Virus record (IMG/VR): IMGVR_UViG_3300017748_000070
Span: 1 to 29,980 of that record
DNA length: 29,980 nucleotides
From: a virus
Reading direction: 5' to 3' (one strand)
A model generated the notes under the pieces. It was not told the DNA's origin. It made no database searches and worked only from the letters and a program-made list of their open reading frames with translations. This document shows positions 1-12,611 of this stretch, one piece after another (within the stretch, counting starts at the first letter, position 1; each line of letters starts with the position of its first letter). The translations under genes and the position numbers were made by a program.

Positions 1-3000
1 TATATCAGTTGCAACGGTTTGTTCTACGCCTCCTCTAGTACCACCTGAACCTCTTAGTTCATAAAAAGGAAAACCGTCAACGGGACGCGTTAATTCAGTA
101 GTAAAAAGAACAGTAGGATCGCCCTCTGTAAATATATCAGGCACAGCTGTAAAAAATTGTGGGGTAATAGTAAGTGATTTTGTTAGGTCAAAAGAATCTC
201 TTAAAGTGATTTTTTCAGATTCAGGCGTTACAAAGAAATTAGATACTACACTTAAAGTAAAGGCATCTCCTAAGTCAAGAGAATCATTAAAAGGCTCCGA
301 ATAAAAATTAAAACTTGTTACAAGTTCTTCTGTCGCCTGTTGATCTGCTAAGCTTTTAGTAAAATTAACAATAGAATCTTCCAACAAAGTAGCTTTTTCT
401 TGGTTTGCGTCGTCAAAACTTCTATTATAAATTACGCTTAAAGTTTCTTCGTCGCTAACACCAAAATCACTTGGAGGCGCATTTTTTATATGTGCGCTAG
501 ATAAACCTTCTACACTTGCGTCTAGCATAGTAACACTGTCAGTAACTATTTCTACGTAATAAAAAGCGTTATTAGTATGCTCTTGCAGGGACTGAGAATC
601 GGTTAGGCTTTTTAGGAGCTGCAACTTAGCGACATCTGAATGAGTACCTATGTTCAGAGTGCGTAAGTTTCGGTTATATACTGTTTCAAAGCTATGCTCA
701 TCTAATAATTCAAAAGCTTTGCTAGTAGAAATAGAATTATTATCTGAAAATTGCAAAGAACTTTCATCAGCGATGTCAATTGTTTCTGTTATAAGCCTAT
801 TAAAATTAACCTGCAATGAGGGTGGAGCGTCGTCTACACCTAAACTATTAGTTAAATTTTTCAAAGGCTGCAGTTTAAGGACATCGTCAACGTCTATATC
901 AAGAGTAGGTAAGTCTCGGTTATATACTGTTTCAAAGCTATGCTCGTCCAGCATAGTTAATTCGGGTGAGCTCGGCTGCACAGAAAAAGCCGTACTAGGG
1001 ACAAGGTCAGCAGAGTCTTGTAGAGTAATAGCACTAGCTATAGTTTCTTGATAATGAGAAAACACAGCTAGTTGTTCTATTGAACTTTGAGTATCGGTTA
1101 AGTTTTTTAAAGGTAGTAGACTAGCAATTTCTAACAAATCAACTTTTTCTTCATTAACGTCGTTAAAAGACCTTAAAAAGAACGCGCTTCTGCTAAATTG
1201 ACTATCGTCCATATTAGCAAAACTTTCTATACCGGATACCGCATGCCCAAAAGATAAGACATCTGTTAAACCAAAAACGCTATTAGCATCTTCGGCATAT
1301 GCTATAGCTAAATTAATATTTTCTGCTGGGGTATAGCTATCAGAAAGTAGCGAAGCAGACTGTATAGAAACCGCGTCTGATACTTCAAAAAATTGTCCGC
1401 TAGTGAAACTTTTAACAGGGGTTAAATCAAATTCATCTGTTAGCCCTATTGTATGAATCCTATCAAACGCAGATATAACGAGGTCAACGTAACTTAAAAA
1501 GTTTAAATTCTCGCTAGAAGAAAAGCTGTCAGAAAAAGGTTTACTACTTAGTAAACTCGGTACATCAAGCGTTGCAAAGTTTTCTACGTCAACGTTGTCA
1601 AAAACTCTTTGGTAAACTATTTGAAAAGCGTGCTCATCTTTTATACCAAAAATATTTTCTTTGTCTTTAATTACATTGCCAGCATTAGCATTGCTATCTA
1701 GCCTAAAGCCGTCAGTAAAAAATTCGTTATAAGCAAAGAAACTGCTTACTGCCTCATCTACAGGTTGGTCGTCAGTTAAACTTGACGTAGTGTTTAACGA
1801 TGGCTCTGAACCAAGCCCAAACGAAAGCTCACCTACGTTTTTTACCGAAGTAATAACCGGAGGTATTTCAATTAATCCTAAAGTTTCAACCTCTGCTTGA
1901 TCTAAATAACTTAAATTAAAAATTGATTCAACTGAAGTTGTTACGTCATTAGTAGGGTCATTTATAGGTTTATCTACAGCAAAAGAATCTTTATCAACAA
2001 ACCCAAAACCAAAGCCCACTCGCTCGTGTAAATTAACTTCTCTTATCTTAGAAACGCCACCGTTTTGCTCAAAAAAGCCTCTAACTATTAGTGTAGTAGT
2101 ATTAGTAGTGGCTACAAACTCTATGGACAACGTTTGCCCGTTTCGCTCTGTCCACGTATTGGCGCTAGTTGATAGTAAACTGTTGTCTAATCCATCTCTG
2201 GCAGAAAGAGCAAGACTATTAGTTGTTGAAGACCTACTAAGGGTAATAATAGAAAATACGTAAACCGAACCCGGCGTAGTAGGTATAGTCTGTTTAATAA
2301 AAGAAAGTTCTTGGTTAGAATTACTAGCTATTTCGTAGTAAGCAACGTTTCGTATAGAAACTCGTTTAGTGCCTGTACCCGAAAAAGCAACCGTTTGATC
2401 ATATGCGGCAAACACATTAGGCACTTTTTCAAGATTGTCAGACCCTACAAAGTTCCTAAAATAGTTTACTTGGAAAGTCTGTTCATCTGATATACCTAAT
2501 GGATTACCCCTAACTTTGCCAATGCCCCTACCAAAGTCTGCAGAGCTTTGTAATGCAAACGAGTCTTCAAAGTTTTCTAAAAAACTATTCGAAAAGAAAA
2601 ATGCTTCTTTTGATGGGACAAAATCAGTAGTTATTTTCTCATTAGAAAATACCGTTTGCTGTTTAATCTCGAAGAAAGATTGCGCCCCTTTCAAAGAACT
2701 AGGTTTAATTTCCTCATCAAAAGAAAAACTGTTAGAAATAACTTCTTCAAAATATATGTTTTGAGTTACATTTTCTTGTGAGGCTTCTAGAGAGTCTGTA
2801 TGTAACGGTTGATATGTTAACGAAGGTAAATCCAATATTGTTGCTAAATCGTCTGCAGAATCAAAAACTCTTTCAAATTGAACTACTAACGTTTCTTGGT
2901 CTCCCATACCAAAAAAGTTTTCTCTGCCTTTTACTAAATCGCCGTTATTAATCTCATCTAGTAATGTTAAACCAGAAGAGGCGGTAACATTATAATAATT

Positions 3001-5550
3001 AGATAGTTGTATTGTTTCGGCTGTTTCTTGCTCGTCTTTAAATTTTTGAGCAACTTTAAAGCTAGAAACGTCTTTTACTGAACTAAAACTGTTAAAACCT
3101 TTCCCGACAGAAGGCGTTACTTCGTCCGCAATAGATAAAGCTTCAGTAATAGCTTCTATATAAAAAGGCTTAAACGTTATGACCTCTTGCACAGTTTGCG
3201 TATCTTCGGCGTTGTCAATACTAGTACTAAAATCTAAAGCGGGGGCGTCTGTAATTTTAGCAACTTGTAAATCATCATCCGCACCAAACGTTCTATATAC
3301 GACGCTTTGGAAATTTTGTTCATCTTTTGTACCTAGCTCGTCTATTCTAGAAGAGATTTCTTGGCCTAATTTAAAGAAGTCTCTAGCAGTAAGCCCATCA
3401 GAAAACTTTTCTTCGTAGAAAATAGAAGTGCTTAAAAACTCTTCTACATTATTAACGTCAGTAAATGTTTTACCTACAGAGGCCGCTAAAATTTCGCTAA
3501 CGCCGAAAGTATCGGCGTACGCTGTAGTAGGGGTAAATGAAAACACATCTTCTATAGAAATATTTTCGTCAACATTCTCGTTGTAATAAAAATCGTTATA
3601 AATTACTTCTTTAGGGCGGTAGCTATCAGCAAAAGGTTTAGCACTTAATAAAGAAGGCGCGTCGGCTACAGATAGGCTTTCGTCTGAACCAGTAAATACT
3701 CTATTAAAAATTGCTTGGAAACTATGTTTATCTACGAACCCGAACGATTCATCCTCACCACTTTGCGATAGGTCAGAGTGTTTATCAGTAGAGAAAAAGT
3801 CTTTTAGCTCTAAAGCATCCGTAAAAGTTTCCATGTAAAAGACGGAAGTAGTGAGCGCCTCGAAGATAGTCTGCTCATCTACAGTGACAGGCTTATAATC
3901 TAAAATAAATTCTTCCGCTACACTGAAAGTGTCGTCTGTATCAAATATCCCATACGCCATAGAAATATTTACTACATCTTCACCGAACCCAAAGCCACTT
4001 TCTTTATCAATAACGTTATAAAACAAAAGGTCTATATTTTCAGAAGTAATATGTTCGTCAAAAATAGGGCCTGATTTAGAAACAATAGGTGGAGAGTCTG
4101 TAATGCTAAACTGTTCGTCTACCCCAGAGAATTCTCTATTAAACGCAATAGTAAGAAACGCTTCTTCGCCTATCGAAAAACCATTAGCTTGAGCTTTTGC
4201 CACGGCAAAATGAGGAGCAGTATCTGCTATGGACATTGGAGACGAAAGCTCTGTTAACAGAGCTACGCTAGCAACATCTGCAATATTAAATGAATTGCTG
4301 ATTACTTCTTCGTGGTGAACGCCTTCAGACACTTGCGCTTTGATTTTAGGATAGTTCGCAATTGGAGTTATGTTTGTGTAATGAGCTACAGCTTGTAAAT
4401 CTACAAAAGAGTTCTCTGCCTGTATCTTTCTACTAATATCACTTAGTACAGGGTTTACTAGTCTGGGCGTAACAACACTATTTATCGCTTTTAGGCTTAT
4501 AGCAGATGAAATTGCTTTGGGTATAGTTACAGATAGAACAGATCTTGTGTCAGCCTTTTGAACCAGTTTAGGTGCTTCAGGTGTAATTACTTCGTCAAGC
4601 TGCGGCAAAAACTTTTCTATATACGCTTCAACTTCTTCGTGGGTGGTTCTGTTAGCCCCTATTGCAGTAGCTTCGTTAACTAGCGGTTCACCTCGAATAC
4701 CAAACGCATATCTAAGGAGAATCAAGCCATCAGTCAATGCATCTAAAGAACCGCTATCATCTATATCACCTATAACTTCTCCTACAGTATTTACATTAGC
4801 TTCTACTTCTTGAGGCGTAAGGGAAGACTGTGCAGATATAGCGCCCTGAGTGAGAGTAGTTCCACCAAGCCCAAACAAGTGCCTTAAAAACAATAACCCA
4901 TCAGTTAGGGCGTCAAGCCTGCCATCTTTATCTATATCAAAAGAAACGTAGGCTATGTCTATAGGAAAAGTTTCTGCTCTAAATATGTAACCGTAAGGAG
5001 TAGTAATTGGAGAGAAATTAAGATTAGTGTTACCTATATTGTTAAAGTCGTCTGATACACTAAACTTAAGTGTAACTAGTTGTATAGGAAGCTCATCTCC
5101 GTCACCCGGCCACGAAGCTCCCTCAGTAACTGGCAACCAACGAAGTCTTATAAATTTATCAGTAGTTGCGTCATTATCAGTGTCATTTGAATCAATAAGG
5201 CCTTCTGAAGCTTGTATGTACCCATTAGATACATGGTTGTCTACTGTGAGCAGGGACAGCTTGGAGCTATCATAGTGTAATCGAAATGCTAGACCGCTTA
5301 AGTTTCTATTATTATCAGACGTATTATAAGAAAGAGTTATGGCGTATTCTGAAAGGCCTATATAGGCTTGCGGACTGCTGCTTACATTTATTAGTTGTCT
5401 TGGTTCGGATGTATCTAAATTAGTATCTACATAATTTAGGATAGTAGTGCTACCAGTAACTGTCTGGTAAAAATCTACAGCCCGCGCAGTTTTGGCGCTA
5501 ACTAGCGCTCTCGGTTTAGAGTATGCTCCGAGAACGGATCGATATGCCAT
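1..5550 (-). CDS. Giant repetitive tail-fibre/attachment protein, partial (C-terminus beyond window)
   Basis: This frame is open from an ATG at 5550 to position 1 with no stop, so at least 1,850 residues are present and the C-terminus lies outside the window. Residues about 20-200 form a beta-rich region with LAFRLHYDSSKLSLL, which resembles cohesin-like domains. Two calcium-loop motifs follow at about residues 205 and 262 (DIDKDGRLDALTDGLL and DIDDSGSLDALTDGLI), like dockerin or EF-hand repeats. From about residue 460 onward a module marked by DEH/DEQ-x-F-x-x-x-Y-x-R recurs about ten times. Residues about 1043-1170 look like a jelly-roll carbohydrate-binding domain that replaces one module. 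The start overlaps the stop of the BppU-like gene (TAATG). Position after the lysis genes and the repetitive surface-protein style suggest a host-binding fibre or tail appendage. No enzyme motif was seen. The function is inferred; the domain matches are by eye. Confidence 0.85.
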   Translation of the reverse strand, partial: MAYRSVLGAYSKPRALVSAKTARAVDFYQTVTGSTTILNYVDTNLDTSEPRQLINVSSSPQAYIGLSEYAITLSYNTSDNNRNLSGLAFRLHYDSSKLSLLTVDNHVSNGYIQASEGLIDSNDTDNDATTDKFIRLRWLPVTEGASWPGDGDELPIQLVTLKFSVSDDFNNIGNTNLNFSPITTPYGYIFRAETFPIDIAYVSFDIDKDGRLDALTDGLLFLRHLFGLGGTTLTQGAISAQSSLTPQEVEANVNTVGEVIGDIDDSGSLDALTDGLILLRYAFGIRGEPLVNEATAIGANRTTHEEVEAYIEKFLPQLDEVITPEAPKLVQKADTRSVLSVTIPKAISSAISLKAINSVVTPRLVNPVLSDISRKIQAENSFVDLQAVAHYTNITPIANYPKIKAQVSEGVHHEEVISNSFNIADVASVALLTELSSPMSIADTAPHFAVAKAQANGFSIGEEAFLTIAFNREFSGVDEQFSITDSPPIVSKSGPIFDEHITSENIDLLFYNVIDKESGFGFGEDVVNISMAYGIFDTDDTFSVAEEFILDYKPVTVDEQTIFEALTTSVFYMETFTDALELKDFFSTDKHSDLSQSGEDESFGFVDKHSFQAIFNRVFTGSDESLSVADAPSLLSAKPFADSYRPKEVIYNDFYYNENVDENISIEDVFSFTPTTAYADTFGVSEILAASVGKTFTDVNNVEEFLSTSIFYEEKFSDGLTARDFFKLGQEISSRIDELGTKDEQNFQSVVYRTFGADDDLQVAKITDAPALDFSTSIDNAEDTQTVQEVITFKPFYIEAITEALSIADEVTPSVGKGFNSFSSVKDVSSFKVAQKFKDEQETAETIQLSNYYNVTASSGLTLLDEINNGDLVKGRENFFGMGDQETLVVQFERVFDSADDLATILDLPSLTYQPLHTDSLEASQENVTQNIYFEEVISNSFSFDEEIKPSSLKGAQSFFEIKQQTVFSNEKITTDFVPSKEAFFFSNSFLENFEDSFALQSSADFGRGIGKVRGNPLGISDEQTFQVNYFRNFVGSDNLEKVPNVFAAYDQTVAFSGTGTKRVSIRNVAYYEIASNSNQELSFIKQTIPTTPGSVYVFSIITLSRSSTTNSLALSARDGLDNSLLSTSANTWTERNGQTLSIEFVATTNTTTLIVRGFFEQNGGVSKIREVNLHERVGFGFGFVDKDSFAVDKPINDPTNDVTTSVESIFNLSYLDQAEVETLGLIEIPPVITSVKNVGELSFGLGSEPSLNTTSSLTDDQPVDEAVSSFFAYNEFFTDGFRLDSNANAGNVIKDKENIFGIKDEHAFQIVYQRVFDNVDVENFATLDVPSLLSSKPFSDSFSSSENLNFLSYVDLVISAFDRIHTIGLTDEFDLTPVKSFTSGQFFEVSDAVSIQSASLLSDSYTPAENINLAIAYAEDANSVFGLTDVLSFGHAVSGIESFANMDDSQFSRSAFFLRSFNDVNEEKVDLLEIASLLPLKNLTDTQSSIEQLAVFSHYQETIASAITLQDSADLVPSTAFSVQPSSPELTMLDEHSFETVYNRDLPTLDIDVDDVLKLQPLKNLTNSLGVDDAPPSLQVNFNRLITETIDIADESSLQFSDNNSISTSKAFELLDEHSFETVYNRNLRTLNIGTHSDVAKLQLLKSLTDSQSLQEHTNNAFYYVEIVTDSVTMLDASVEGLSSAHIKNAPPSDFGVSDEETLSVIYNRSFDDANQEKATLLEDSIVNFTKSLADQQATEELVTSFNFYSEPFNDSLDLGDAFTLSVVSNFFVTPESEKITLRDSFDLTKSLTITPQFFTAVPDIFTEGDPTVLFTTELTRPVDGFPFYELRGSGGTRGGVEQTVATDI
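421..4170 (-). repeat. Degenerate protein repeat array inside the giant fibre ORF (about 10 modules)
   Basis: The motif [L/F/I]xDExxFxxxYxRxF recurs with centres near 4150, 3720, 3310, 2885, 2475, 1625, 1180, 930, 685 and 435. Spacing is about 410-430 nt in the N-terminal part, a double gap of about 850 nt where the carbohydrate-binding-like domain sits, one gap of about 445 nt, then about 245-250 nt in the part nearest the window edge. A second conserved block (DxPSLxxxKPxxDS) follows many copies. This looks like modular duplication followed by shortening of the unit. Confidence 0.75.
658..945 (-). repeat. Recent direct repeat within the fibre ORF (copies 658-699 and 904-945)
   Basis: Positions 671-699 and 917-945 are identical over 29 bases. 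Extending both copies to 658 and 904 gives 42 bases with only three mismatches. The offset is 246 nt, exactly 82 codons, so the reading frame is kept. Both copies encode DEHSFETVYNR. The nucleotide identity is much higher than between other modules, which suggests a recent duplication or gene conversion. Confidence 0.85.
4684..4938 (-). other. Two dockerin/EF-hand-like calcium-binding repeats in the fibre protein
   Basis: Codons from 4938 read DIDKDGRLDALTDGLLFL followed by RHLFGLGG. Codons from 4767 read DIDDSGSLDALTDGLILL followed by RYAFGIRG. Both have Asp/Asn-type ligands at loop positions 1, 3, 5 and 9 and a helix after the loop. The period is 57 residues, longer than in classical cellulosomal dockerins. 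The form recalls dockerin-like repeats of large bacterial surface proteins. Calcium binding is inferred. Confidence 0.8.
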
Positions 5551-5921
5551 TAATCAAAATCACTACGCACTTTGAATTTGATTAAGTCATAAACAGTTTG
5601 TTTACCTCCGCCGCTAAAAGTAATTTCAAGCTCGCCTTCGTACGTGCCGGCTTGATCAAAAGCTGTTAAATCGGCAGTGACTTGTCCAGAGCTACCATCA
5701 CCGACCAATGAACACGTTACCGTCTTAAGTATAGTAGTACTCCCTACTGCCCTTACGCGTAGTATTACAGACGCGCCGTTAAGAGCGAGAGGAGCCCAAG
5801 TAGTAGAGTCAAACTCATCCAGTTGCTTTCCGGAAGCTGCAGTACTGCTGTCTTTTAAGCTGAAGTTAAGTTGTGGTAACGTGTCGCCTGTTACCATATT
5901 TACTGTATCTGAATAAGCCAT
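5550..5921 (-). CDS. BppU N-terminal-like baseplate/tail protein
   Basis: This 123-aa all-beta protein begins MAYSDTVNMVTGDTLPQLNF and contains LNGASVILRVRA, SSGQVTADLT and AGTYEGELEITF, ending with a KFKVRSDF-like strand. That order of strands is typical of the BppU_N family (phage baseplate upper protein, N-terminal domain), which usually joins receptor-binding components to the tail. An AGGTAAC ribosome site precedes the ATG. Its TAA overlaps the ATG of the giant fibre gene, so the two are probably co-translated, and this protein could be the adaptor or partner for the fibre. The family assignment is by eye. Confidence 0.7.
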   Translation of the reverse strand: MAYSDTVNMVTGDTLPQLNFSLKDSSTAASGKQLDEFDSTTWAPLALNGASVILRVRAVGSTTILKTVTCSLVGDGSSGQVTADLTAFDQAGTYEGELEITFSGGGKQTVYDLIKFKVRSDFD

Positions 5922-6950: not shown

Positions 6951-9900
6951 CTATAGTTGATTGTAAATTGGTATTAAACGATTCTTTAATGTTCTGTCTA
7001 TTGAGAAACCATTTTCTAAAATAGTATCTACTGTTTCAGCAGTAGGCCCTAAGAAAGGTAGTATAGCATCTGGCGCAAACCCTTCTATACCTTTGTCGTC
7101 CCATTTAGCATTTTGATGAGACATCGCTGCTAAAGTAAATATACCTAAGAACCCAGATCTATCTATAGTCTCAGTAAGGTAAGTAGGCCAGTCCATACGA
7201 TCTGTTCTAAAATACTTGTTATCCATTTCAACTCCGGGTAGCACTGCCGCTAAACCCTGTTTAGTATATTCTCTTACTTCCATAGCTAACATAGCTAAAG
7301 GCATAGTTGCAAGAGCGGTAAGCGCTAAAACAGCGAGCGTTGCGGTCAGTTGAGGCATGCCCTGCCCATCCATTTCAGTTCTTCTCGCAATCATCTCTCT
7401 ATACACGCCGCCCATAATAACTTTACCGTACGCGTAAAAATAAGATTTTAACTGCCAAACAAGTGCCCAATGTGGGTCAGACGCCCACACAGGTCTTTCA
7501 GCTGAGTTTGGTCTTAGTATTGACGACTCTACAAAACGTTGCAACCCCTTCTTAACTTTCTTGCCTTCGGGGCTAGTAAGTTTTCTACCACCGTCGTTCC
7601 ATGCCATAACTTCTTTAGCTGTAAGACCTAACTCTCTAAGATAACGTTCTGACCTAGGGTTATTAAACTCGTTGCGAGCGTGTTTTAATATAAACTGTAC
7701 ACCCATACCCGCTGCAAACTCTCTTGAAAAAGTTGTAAACCATTGCAACGCCGTGTACTTAAAAAATACATCTGACATTTTACGGACTTTAGGGTCCATA
7801 TAATCTAGTTCAGCTTGAGTAACCCACGAGTTGGCAACAACTTCATTAGTCACGACACCTAAATCTCTAGCAAACTGTCTTGCCTCTGCACGGTTTTTTA
7901 TAGTAGTAGGGATTTGTTTTAGCCCCTCTACTAAACCGCCGAACTCTTTTGAGTTAATGATAGGCCCTGCAATTTCTGGAAGAGAAGCAATAGCAGCAAA
8001 CGGTAGTATTGTTACAAACTGTAAAAACTGACCATAGCTGTTTACTTTTCTCCACATTGGACTTAGCGGGTTTGTCTGATATCCCAAGTGCGTGGCAATA
8101 ATCTCTTCGGCAATCGCTCTATCTTCAGGGGCAAGCTTGTCTAACTCTTGATCAAGAATGCTATTACCTTGATTATCTTTAGTGTGTTTATTCCACTCAA
8201 CGCGTTTTACAACGTGTCTTAAGTACTGGACAAATGCATCTTGCGGTTCATGTAAAAAACCAGCATCGTAAAGGTTCTGCCTGCCGACATTTAGTGTTAG
8301 TTGTAAAGCTTTTTCTACAGCTGCTGCTGGGTTAGACGCGTCTACGTCAATAGGCTGCCCGTCTGCAATGCTTTGGTTATATTTTAAAACAGCTTGTATA
8401 GAATCTCTTACAGACTTTTCGTCAGCCGTCGGGTCTTGTTGTAACACCAACTCTACGAACCCATCTAGATTTTCTTGTATAGCCATTAAGTTAAGAGCTG
8501 TTGGGAAGTAGTTTTCTACTCTACCTATATCAGTAGCAGAAGGTGCTATATACTCATCGTAAACGCTTTCTAAAAACTTGCGAACAGCTTGCCCTTTTTC
8601 TGATAATTGATCTGTATCTCTATCACTCATGGCTTCAAGTAAAGCCGCTTGTACATCTGGATCGCTCATCTCGCCGACTTCGGTCTCAAACTTGTTTTGG
8701 AACTCAGCTATCTGCCTAGCTGACGCTCCGACAAAACCTAGTCCACCATCTGCGTTTGAGTCTTGAGAGCGTATGTAAAACATGTCCGCGATTTTTCTAC
8801 CCGCATGTAACCTCATAATACCGTCTGCTGTTCTTGCTAGTTTCATTAACGGACGCAGTTTAGGATTGCGGGCGATATCTGCAAGCTTTCCGCGCCAATG
8901 GTCGGCAAGCGCTTCTCCGCCCATCTTAACAACAGCTTGATTAACTTCTTGTACCATAGCTTTCTGTACAAAGTTGGGGTTGGCACTAGTGCCGGCTGTT
9001 TCGTAACCTTTTTTCTTAGCGTCTACAACTGCCTCGATGTAAGTTTCGAAGTCTTGAGAGGTGTTACCCAAACGACGTTTCATCGTCCTAGTAAACTCTC
9101 GGTACATAGCTTTTAATTTTTGTGCTAACTCTTTAAAATGTTTATCAGTTAAAGACCTAGCTTGTTTGTTAATAAACTTCTTAGTGGCCCATCTTGCTAC
9201 TTGGTCGGCATACCATTCTTCAAACGCTAATTCATAGTCGTAAGCATTTAAGTAGTTTTGATATCTAGGGTCTTTTTCAAAGGCTTTAAGTAGTCTAGCT
9301 CTTAAAGCTGGATTAGCTGTAGCTGCCGCCATTTCTTCCCTAAACAACGCGTGGCCAAACTCGTGTGCCAAAACAGCTGCGTCTCTAAGCATGTTGCCAG
9401 ATTCGTTTAAGATAATCAGATTAGCTTCACTGCCTGAGTCAACCAAAGTAAGGTGCATGCCTCTTAGGTTGCCGTTACTTTCACGCATTCTGTTGATAGC
9501 GGCTAAAACTTGATTTACATTTTCTACACCGAACTGCTGCTCTATCTCACCTATAGTCATATTTACTAGATTTTCATAAGTAAACACTCTTGGTGGGTTT
9601 TTTAGTTTTATAGCTTTTCGCAGGTTGTTTATCAGACCTACTAAAAACGATTCTTCTACGCCAGCAATTGTTTCAGGCTCGGCTTGCGGTCTGTTAGGTT
9701 GAGTAGGCTCGGCTTGGTTGTTAGTGGTAGGTGCTCTACCTGTACGTCTGTCTGTTTGACGATCTGCGTCTTGTGCAGTTTCTGGCTGATCGAGCATTCT
9801 ATCAACTTCTGAACGGCCGTCCGTTTCATCTACTTGGTCGTCTGGATCAAATTCCTGATTAACTCTTCTGGTCTCACGGCCCATGACGTCTCTTTGGAAG

Positions 9901-12611
9901 CGCTCGAACGCATCCATAGCTTCATCTGTACCGGACTGAACACCCGCTCTCTCACTAGTTGGCCTTCCTTCGGAATCTACGTCTTCCGCTATAACAGCTT
10001 CTGGGCGTTGTTCAGGGATAGTCTGAGGAGGAGAAAGCAGTTCACCCAAAGTAACTTCTTTTCCATTTATAACAGCGGCTACTGTGCTGCCTTGATAGTC
10101 AGGGACCGGTTGATTACCGATGTCAAATATTGATTCGCCGGATACGACTACATCATATCCCGCTAATCGTAGTTCTGTAAGTATCTCTTGTAAACCTTTT
10201 CTAGCAGCTTCAAATGGCGTTTGACCTTCGAATCTGCCATCGCCACGGGCTGATGCTAAACGCTGACCTGCTCGAGTAAGATCAGCCAAATTTACTTTAA
10301 TACGCTTGCCATCTGGCGTTACTAAAACTATGTTTTTAAACTTACTTTTCTTAGCTATTTTAATAGCTCTGTCTAAGAACTCTGCTTCTGTAACGCGATA
10401 AACTTTCTTATCGACAGGGTCTACCAACTCTATTAAGTTTGAATCAAACGATGTCCTTACAACCTCAAACTTACCGGCGCTGTTTTTTCTGATTGTCACA
10501 ACTGCGTTTTTATTAGCACGTTGCTGCCTTACAGCTTCTCTTAAAGTACTTTCTGAAACTTCGCCTATCTCAGCAGTATCCCATTCTTGAGCGCCAAAGG
10601 CGGCATCATAATCATCTCTTGCTTCTTGGGTGTTATCAAACACTCTAGCCCGATCTGCTTTAGGCTCGTAAGTACCTGTTACGGTTTCTTCACCCTCTAT
10701 AGTTTGTACGCCTTCTTGATTTTCTAGATCGGTTTCTTGGTCAACCTCTGTTTGAGGGGCGTCCTCAACATCTTTAGGCGATCTTTTTTTACCTTGAGTC
10801 AACTTCTCAGCTGCTGCGGTCAAGTCTGCTAGTCCTATCTTTACTTTAGTACCATCAGGTCTAGTAACTGTAATGCTTTTAAATTTACTACCTTTTGCTA
10901 GTTCTATAGCGTCAAACAAATCGTCTTCGTTCATTTCACGAATGGAGTCGTCAACGTCTGCATCTCTAATATCAGGCCCTTGCTCTTGTTGATATTTTTT
11001 AGCTCTAGTCTCTAATGCCTGCTCAGCAGTCGTTATGTTTATAGAGCCGCCGTCTGGTTTTAAACCTTCCGCATTTTCTATGGTTTGTTGTAAAACATCT
11101 TGATTAGTAACTTCTTCAGAAACAACATTTCCATCTGTATCAAAAACTTGCACAACTATGTCAGTCGGGCCTGCTTCAGTCTTGGATTGATTGTATCCAA
11201 GTGCTATTGCAAGCGAGCTATCAGTAGCCCTAGAGTTTATAACCTCTTGAACAATGTTTTTATCTGCAGAGATAATAGTGCCTCTACCGGGAATAAATGC
11301 GGCGAAAGCACGTTTGCCGTCTACAGTTACTGGAGTGACCTTATTAGGTCGAGCATTAAATGCTGGGTCTGTTCCCGCCTGCCATACTGATTTTTTAGTA
11401 CTGGTGGGGTCTACCATTGCTTTTAACTGAGCGTTTAAATCGGCTTGCGATTCTGGAGTAGTAGTACTACTAAGTGGGTCACCGTACTGCTCATCATCAA
11501 CTACGTCGTTTATATCTTTTGTTCTTTTCTCGTCCATCATACGACGAGCTTTATCCATTATATCTGCAGTAGCATCTAGTACCCCCGCTTCCGCTACTTT
11601 ACGTATACCAGTAGCTGCAACCGTACCTGTAGCACCGACAGGAGCTCCACCAAAAAAACCGCCGAACGCTGCTTCTGCCAATCGAAGTTGCGCGTCTTCA
11701 GCAGTGTAAGTGGGATCTAAATCCATTCTATTTAATACGGCTAAGCTTTCTTGACCTACTTCTGTGGCGCCCTCTATAGCTCCAGTCCTAAGTGTATTAG
11801 TAGCAACGAGCTTAGCGAAGTCTCCGAAAGTAGAGCTCTCTTTTACAGCTCTTTTTTTAGCTACGTTACCTAGTAGCTTTACTATAGCAACTTCGCCAGC
11901 TACGCCTATAGCTGCTTGAGGTAGCCCCAATAACCCAGCTCTAGCCGCTTGCTCTGTATCTAGTTCTTTCCCAGAGTCTAAAGCCTCACTCAAGTTTGAA
12001 CCAGATAGCGGCACATACTCAGCCGCAAAAGCCCCGCCTATAGCGCCGTTTTTGAAAGTTTTATATAAAGAGTTTGCTAAATCTTTCTCGTCGGGAGTAG
12101 CCGTTCCTTTTATAGTCCTGTTTATAGAGTCTCGCCCAATACGTTCTGCGATCTTCCTACTACTATAAGTAACGCCTTTTTTACCTAAAACTGTAGCTAC
12201 GCCACCAACACCGCCGCCTGCTACAGTTGTAACTAAACTAGGTACAGCTTGGCCACTAAACTTTACAGCTTGCTCAAAAAAACCGCTCACGGTTGGGGCT
12301 TCTAGAAACTCACCAAACGTGTCTATGTCTTGCACTGCAAGGCTAGCGTTCTCTTCTAATCTTCTAGCTTCAGCTATGTTGTCAGCTATAGAATCTTCGT
12401 CTGACCCTACTAAAGTTTTACTAAGTGCTTTGAAGTATTCAACATCTGCAGCAAGGCCTTCCGACCCCTGCAGCATACCATCTGAAAAAGTTTCAGATAT
12501 GGTTCTCTTACGTTCTGTCTCGGGGGTATCTTCTGTTACAGAAAAATCGGGAGTCTCGTTATCCAGCACTGACTGAGTAAGCGTTGATATGTAGTCTGTA
12601 GGATCGGCCAT
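6951..12611 (-). CDS. Giant internal virion/ejection protein with zinc metallopeptidase motif (gp16-like position)
   Basis: This 1,886-aa protein is in the position of the T7 gp16-type internal virion protein, after two smaller internal proteins and a 694-aa one. Residues about 125-175 are Gly/Val-rich and could contact membrane. Residues about 571-604 and 749-784 hold a duplicated module (KSKFKNI... TPDG... LADLT). AVLAHEFGHALF at about residues 1083-1087 is an HExxH zinc-protease signature, and AFEEWYADQVARW about 43 residues later offers a third-ligand glutamate. A C-terminal membrane-like segment lies near 1756-1780 (LAVLALTALATMPLAMLAM). No lysozyme or transglycosylase motif was recognised. 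The AGGAG site seven bases before the ATG is strong. It probably enters the host envelope with the DNA; whether the protease acts on cell wall, host proteins or virion proteins is unknown. Confidence 0.8.
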   Translation of the reverse strand: MADPTDYISTLTQSVLDNETPDFSVTEDTPETERKRTISETFSDGMLQGSEGLAADVEYFKALSKTLVGSDEDSIADNIAEARRLEENASLAVQDIDTFGEFLEAPTVSGFFEQAVKFSGQAVPSLVTTVAGGGVGGVATVLGKKGVTYSSRKIAERIGRDSINRTIKGTATPDEKDLANSLYKTFKNGAIGGAFAAEYVPLSGSNLSEALDSGKELDTEQAARAGLLGLPQAAIGVAGEVAIVKLLGNVAKKRAVKESSTFGDFAKLVATNTLRTGAIEGATEVGQESLAVLNRMDLDPTYTAEDAQLRLAEAAFGGFFGGAPVGATGTVAATGIRKVAEAGVLDATADIMDKARRMMDEKRTKDINDVVDDEQYGDPLSSTTTPESQADLNAQLKAMVDPTSTKKSVWQAGTDPAFNARPNKVTPVTVDGKRAFAAFIPGRGTIISADKNIVQEVINSRATDSSLAIALGYNQSKTEAGPTDIVVQVFDTDGNVVSEEVTNQDVLQQTIENAEGLKPDGGSINITTAEQALETRAKKYQQEQGPDIRDADVDDSIREMNEDDLFDAIELAKGSKFKSITVTRPDGTKVKIGLADLTAAAEKLTQGKKRSPKDVEDAPQTEVDQETDLENQEGVQTIEGEETVTGTYEPKADRARVFDNTQEARDDYDAAFGAQEWDTAEIGEVSESTLREAVRQQRANKNAVVTIRKNSAGKFEVVRTSFDSNLIELVDPVDKKVYRVTEAEFLDRAIKIAKKSKFKNIVLVTPDGKRIKVNLADLTRAGQRLASARGDGRFEGQTPFEAARKGLQEILTELRLAGYDVVVSGESIFDIGNQPVPDYQGSTVAAVINGKEVTLGELLSPPQTIPEQRPEAVIAEDVDSEGRPTSERAGVQSGTDEAMDAFERFQRDVMGRETRRVNQEFDPDDQVDETDGRSEVDRMLDQPETAQDADRQTDRRTGRAPTTNNQAEPTQPNRPQAEPETIAGVEESFLVGLINNLRKAIKLKNPPRVFTYENLVNMTIGEIEQQFGVENVNQVLAAINRMRESNGNLRGMHLTLVDSGSEANLIILNESGNMLRDAAVLAHEFGHALFREEMAAATANPALRARLLKAFEKDPRYQNYLNAYDYELAFEEWYADQVARWATKKFINKQARSLTDKHFKELAQKLKAMYREFTRTMKRRLGNTSQDFETYIEAVVDAKKKGYETAGTSANPNFVQKAMVQEVNQAVVKMGGEALADHWRGKLADIARNPKLRPLMKLARTADGIMRLHAGRKIADMFYIRSQDSNADGGLGFVGASARQIAEFQNKFETEVGEMSDPDVQAALLEAMSDRDTDQLSEKGQAVRKFLESVYDEYIAPSATDIGRVENYFPTALNLMAIQENLDGFVELVLQQDPTADEKSVRDSIQAVLKYNQSIADGQPIDVDASNPAAAVEKALQLTLNVGRQNLYDAGFLHEPQDAFVQYLRHVVKRVEWNKHTKDNQGNSILDQELDKLAPEDRAIAEEIIATHLGYQTNPLSPMWRKVNSYGQFLQFVTILPFAAIASLPEIAGPIINSKEFGGLVEGLKQIPTTIKNRAEARQFARDLGVVTNEVVANSWVTQAELDYMDPKVRKMSDVFFKYTALQWFTTFSREFAAGMGVQFILKHARNEFNNPRSERYLRELGLTAKEVMAWNDGGRKLTSPEGKKVKKGLQRFVESSILRPNSAERPVWASDPHWALVWQLKSYFYAYGKVIMGGVYREMIARRTEMDGQGMPQLTATLAVLALTALATMPLAMLAMEVREYTKQGLAAVLPGVEMDNKYFRTDRMDWPTYLTETIDRSGFLGIFTLAAMSHQNAKWDDKGIEGFAPDAILPFLGPTAETVDTILENGFSIDRTLKNRLIPIYNQL

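Follow-up and report, generated by a model that had tools for sequence, protein, structure and literature searches.

A cohesin-like and dockerin-like module near the N-terminus of a phage tail-fibre-like protein: a possible calcium clasp

The window analysed here, 29,980 nucleotides of the viral record IMGVR_UViG_3300017748_000070, carries on its minus strand a tail-fibre-like gene (1..5550) that opens with an ATG at 5550 and runs without a stop for 1850 aa to base 1 of the window, so that its 3′ end is cut by the contig end. A preliminary description had taken 4684-5550 as a whole feature encoding some 290 to 330 aa, with cohesin-like and dockerin-like domains in one chain. That interval covers residues 1-289 only, ending inside the second dockerin-like repeat (which extends to about residue 317), and its plus strand has many stops; the real protein has at least 1850 aa. 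The two domains in one chain are real and lie on the minus strand, as a modelled sandwich at residues 51-201 and a loop pair at residues 202-317.

The layout of the protein, all on the minus strand, is as follows. Residues 1-50 (MAYRSVLGAYSKPRALVS; 5401..5550) form a conserved N-terminus and are a probable virion anchor. Residues 51-201 (4948..5400), which include LAFRLHYDSSKLSLL at residues 87-101, make up a beta-sandwich of cohesin fold. Residues 202-317 (4600..4947) hold a duplicated dockerin-like calcium-loop module, with calcium-type loops DIDKDGRLDALTD (residues 205-217; 4900..4938) and DIDDSGSLDALTD (residues 262-274; 4729..4767); the pair of loops noticed earlier, DIDKDGRLDALTDGLLFLRHLFG at residue 205 and DIDDSGSLDALTDGLILLRYAFG at residue 262, is indeed 57 residues apart. 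From residue 341 to 1850 (1..4530) there follow Cys-free, degenerate repeats rich in Ser, Thr and Asp.

The identity of the protein as the tail-fibre (adhesion) protein of a tailed phage is supported by gene position, synteny and divergence rather than by a family match, in agreement with its earlier description as an attachment protein. The gene is long and repetitive, lies beside tail and lysis genes, and diverges much faster than the head genes. In a syntenic IMG/VR contig of 52,334 bp (G001), TerL is 94% identical to that of the window phage and the portal and major head proteins 91%, and the genes downstream match tail-fibre and internal-virion PHROGs. The G001 fibre is complete (1713 aa) and holds the whole module; identity between the two fibres is highest at the N-terminus (58%), falling to 43% in the cohesin-like and 50% in the dockerin-like part and to 24-29% in the fast-diverging distal repeats. 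The fibre is thus a fast-changing gene and the module a slower part within it.

Just upstream, a 123-aa gene (5550..5921, minus strand; 73% identical in G001) overlaps the fibre start in the sequence TAATG, and the adjacency is kept in G001; overlap and conserved adjacency suggest that the two genes are co-expressed. The proposal that this neighbour is a BppU-like tail partner found no family support, since the protein has no Pfam or PDB sequence match and only weak PHROG matches, to groups without an assigned function. A distant relative is encoded by Achromobacter phage CF418P1, near a putative collar gene. Elsewhere in the window, 6951-12611 (minus strand) encodes a protein of 1886 aa, probably an internal virion protein, in which one stretch weakly resembles Peptidase_M78 (E 0.0096); against its 2044-aa counterpart in G001, the best segment is 88% identical over 911 aa.

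Residues 1-340 were modelled with AF2 from a 13-sequence alignment. Confidence is low for residues 1-43; for residues 51-318 pLDDT is mostly about 90 or above, with a mean of about 89 over residues 51-200, where the strands of the sandwich lie. The top 26 Foldseek matches in the PDB are cohesins, with the single exception of 9ifr. The best is 5lxv (Ruminococcus ScaC; E 1.9e-7), and others include 6kgc (C. acetobutylicum), 2vn5 and 1g1k (C. cellulolyticum) and 2jh2/2vo8 (C. perfringens); identities are 10-16%, and TM-scores, taken by target length, are about 0.6-0.7. Judged by whole-fold match, structure prediction, which had been proposed as the check for a cohesin fold, gave a jelly-roll sandwich of cohesin type at residues 51-201. 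The window protein has no match to Pfam Cohesin (PF00963), and PDB profile searches found neither cohesin nor dockerin; 5 of the 13 homologues match Cohesin at E values up to 1 (best E 0.00042), and matches of homologues at E 0.00042-0.025 fall just under the cut-off. With a confident model, cohesins at the head of the structural matches and homologues that touch the Pfam family, we regard the predicted cohesin-like sandwich as well supported.

A predicted fold match by itself is no proof of a cohesin. The exception, 9ifr, is a CLIPPER domain of CnaA fold and is among the best matches of the sandwich (TMt 0.74); CLIPPER is a stalk domain (PMC12617251). The module could accordingly be read as an inert stalk, a rigid beta-sandwich followed by a calcium-stiffened spacer, with no mutual binding, much like the CnaA-type stalk domains of fibrillar adhesins. 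The giant proteins of related phages described below, rich in other DxDxDG loops, fit such a spacer too. What makes us think this rather unlikely is that the cohesin-like and dockerin-like parts stay together across cyanobacteria, proteobacteria and phage, as expected if they work together.

The dockerin-like pair is clearly a duplication at the sequence level: its two halves align with a BLOSUM62 score of 104, whereas 2000 shuffles never gave more than 47, and the signature DxDxxGxxDALTDGL occurs twice, exactly 57 residues apart. In the AF2 model the loop that begins at 205 leads into a helix at 214-225 and the loop at 262 into one at 271-282; a further helix (246-260) separates the two loops. 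The canonical type I dockerin loop has 12 residues, with calcium ligands at positions 1, 3, 5, 9 and 12. The loops here have 13 (DxDxDGxxDALTD), one longer, and position 5 of the second is Ser. Modelled alone, the dockerin-like part reached a pLDDT of 92.6, and a Foldseek search of the PDB with this model returned no dockerin (best E 1.1); we call this half dockerin-like because it has no match among solved structures. Dockerin_1 (PF00404) is matched by 6 of the 13 aligned homologues (best E 7.2e-7), with L030 and L031 above the cut-off; in Prochlorococcus the match exceeds the gathering cut-off. The earlier dockerin assignment is supported by the homologues and weakened by the fold search, the loop length and the window protein itself, which scores nothing in Pfam. 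The module is best described as cohesin-like plus dockerin-like, not as a certified member of either family.

One might suspect a chance resemblance or a misread frame, since Pfam, NCBIfam, PHROG and PDB sequence searches with the window protein itself gave nothing useful; a weak DUF642 match (E 0.11) was discarded. The same module in a syntenic homologue, a duplication far above its shuffles and a confidently predicted fold refute that reading, to which we give almost no credence.

Scanning genomes recovered the two-domain module from Thiomicrospira, Planktothricoides, Microcoleus, two Prochlorococcus genomes and one bacterial MAG; Porticoccaceae gave a relative with the cohesin part alone. 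In the four named genera the cohesin-like and dockerin-like parts stand side by side in secreted-type proteins, at 30-37% identity to the phage module. Compared with PDB sequences, the bacterial homologues gave chance matches only; scoring as well as E 7.2e-7 for Dockerin_1 and E 4.2e-4 for Cohesin, they bridge the gap between the phage sequence and these families. In a tree made to look for a recent bacterial donor, the phage modules form one clade (100/98) with no supported bacterial neighbour. In one Prochlorococcus genome of 1.8 Mb there are 18 matching stretches: complete modules lie at the C-termini of proteins, some frames have the cohesin or the dockerin alone, and the partner domains include PA14, C-type lectin, cadherin and matrixin (a metalloprotease). 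The small Prochlorococcus single-cell genome G007 (L058-L062) carries many cohesin-like and dockerin-like modules on large surface-type proteins. The titles and abstracts returned by a literature search did not describe this multi-module genome.

If the module also terminates surface proteins of the host, the phage copy could plug into a host surface cohesin/dockerin network for adsorption. Some marine bacteria do carry many modules, as the 18 stretches in one small genome illustrate, and related phages have dockerin-like doublets with no detected cohesin. Such docking nonetheless seems improbable to us: the module adjoins the conserved N-terminus and is better conserved than the distal region, the phage modules are a clade of their own with no near bacterial neighbour, and the module is rare: at E 1e-20 it turned up in 2 out of 369 genomes from the class of G008 and in 2 out of 194 from that of G007.

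The doublets just mentioned occur on 13 other viral contigs, in other giant proteins and without the cohesin-like part. Most of the doublet-bearing contigs compared share an endolysin with the window phage, and several have holin-like and membrane genes in common with it as well, at about 62-73% identity. In one related phage the giant protein has a Dockerin_1 stretch above cut-off; Pfam Cohesin was not detected in the fragmentary records of these phages. Only the dockerin-like region and some following sequence align with the fibre, and the giant genes are placed after other genes; we therefore treat these proteins as different from the fibre. Four of them, all fragments on the minus strand (L011:1-9417, L007:2-5677, L013:3-8636 and L024:2-10900; 1892 to over 3600 aa), have the doublet towards the N-terminus, and several of these also have thrombospondin-type-3-like DxDxDG repeats. 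Separately, a 244-aa frame beside a PAAR-like gene on a viral contig (L056:4573-5304, plus strand; the same in L057:4596-5327) shows two truncated matches to the cohesin-like profile, with the later part of the profile coming first (profile 51-133, then 6-51): a second phage type with cohesin-like sequence, possibly frameshifted. Scanning DNA with a coarse pattern of the cohesin motif gave nothing informative.

How might the module act? Calcium-dependent fibre assembly or host mimicry is possible, and we prefer a calcium clasp, formed inside one fibre subunit or from one to another, to docking on the host. Tailed-phage fibres generally attach to the virion by the N-terminus, and the module adjoins that conserved end. 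Each of the two phage records has one cohesin-like and one dockerin-like module in the same chain, and neither our searches nor Pfam Cohesin added a second; the window record, being incomplete, may lack a further partner that the phage has. With one pair per chain and the conserved N-terminus alongside, a clasp within or between subunits is the simplest account. We imagine that the dockerin-like part would bind Ca2+ and would grip the cohesin-like part of a neighbouring fibre subunit (most likely) or of its own chain; this virion-proximal clasp would hold the fibre together or to the tail, with the long distal repeats facing the host. The occurrence of both domains as one unit in bacteria, and the 43-50% identity of the module to its G001 homologue versus 24-29% distally, argue for the clasp. 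Against it stand the doublets with no detected cohesin in the fragmentary records of related phages, which indicate that the dockerin-like part can exist without the cohesin-like part, and also the one extra residue in each loop and the lack of a PDB match for the dockerin-like model. On balance, a fibre protein whose bacterial-type, non-cellulosomal module forms such a clasp comes, in our judgment, close to an even chance. That a phage virion uses a working calcium-dependent bond of cohesin-dockerin type at all, whether between its fibre subunits or with a host surface network, we put forward more hesitantly still.

The unusual combination in a phage fibre-like protein is real, with known modules in a new setting, and we know of no earlier viral use of a cohesin-dockerin interaction. 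With a bond of this kind in the virion, calcium would control the assembly or attachment of a tail fibre in a manner not seen before; our findings suggest that some phages may build or attach their fibres by a cellulosome-type clasp. The related bacterial proteins also draw attention to a surface-assembly system, so far little studied, that may be shared or exploited by phages. Cohesin-dockerin binding ranks with the strongest protein-protein bonds known (PMC6030884).

Dockerin-type similarity has been reported for gene 40 of Vibrio phage VvAW1 and gp02 of E. coli phage vB_EcoS_HSE2 (PMC3558961, PMC5967307); the available portions of these reports mention no cohesin, and an isolate-phage collection of 50,697 records holds no protein similar to that of the window. 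With the clostridial type I cohesin-dockerin system, in which dockerins have a dual binding mode (PMC12484212), the phage module shares the cohesin fold and duplicated, near-symmetric calcium loops; it differs in its 10-16% identity, longer loops, extra helix between them, lack of cellulosome context and lack of a dockerin fold match. Non-cellulosomal archaeal modules likewise place cohesin and dockerin outside cellulose degradation: examples are the Archaeoglobus fulgidus pair (PMC9705933) and the ANME scaffoldin-like proteins, with cohesin and dockerin in one chain; archaeal versions bind strongly (PMC9012536). Compared with these, the phage version is viral, lies near the N-terminus of a tail-fibre-like protein, and has 13-residue loops at a 57-residue spacing. 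The modules of Prochlorococcus, Thiomicrospira, Microcoleus and Planktothricoides share with it the domain order, the loop signature (D.D..G, then ALTDG or variants) and a helix ending in LFG. In Thiomicrospira and Prochlorococcus the module is C-terminal, and in others it recurs, whereas in the phage it stands near the N-terminus.
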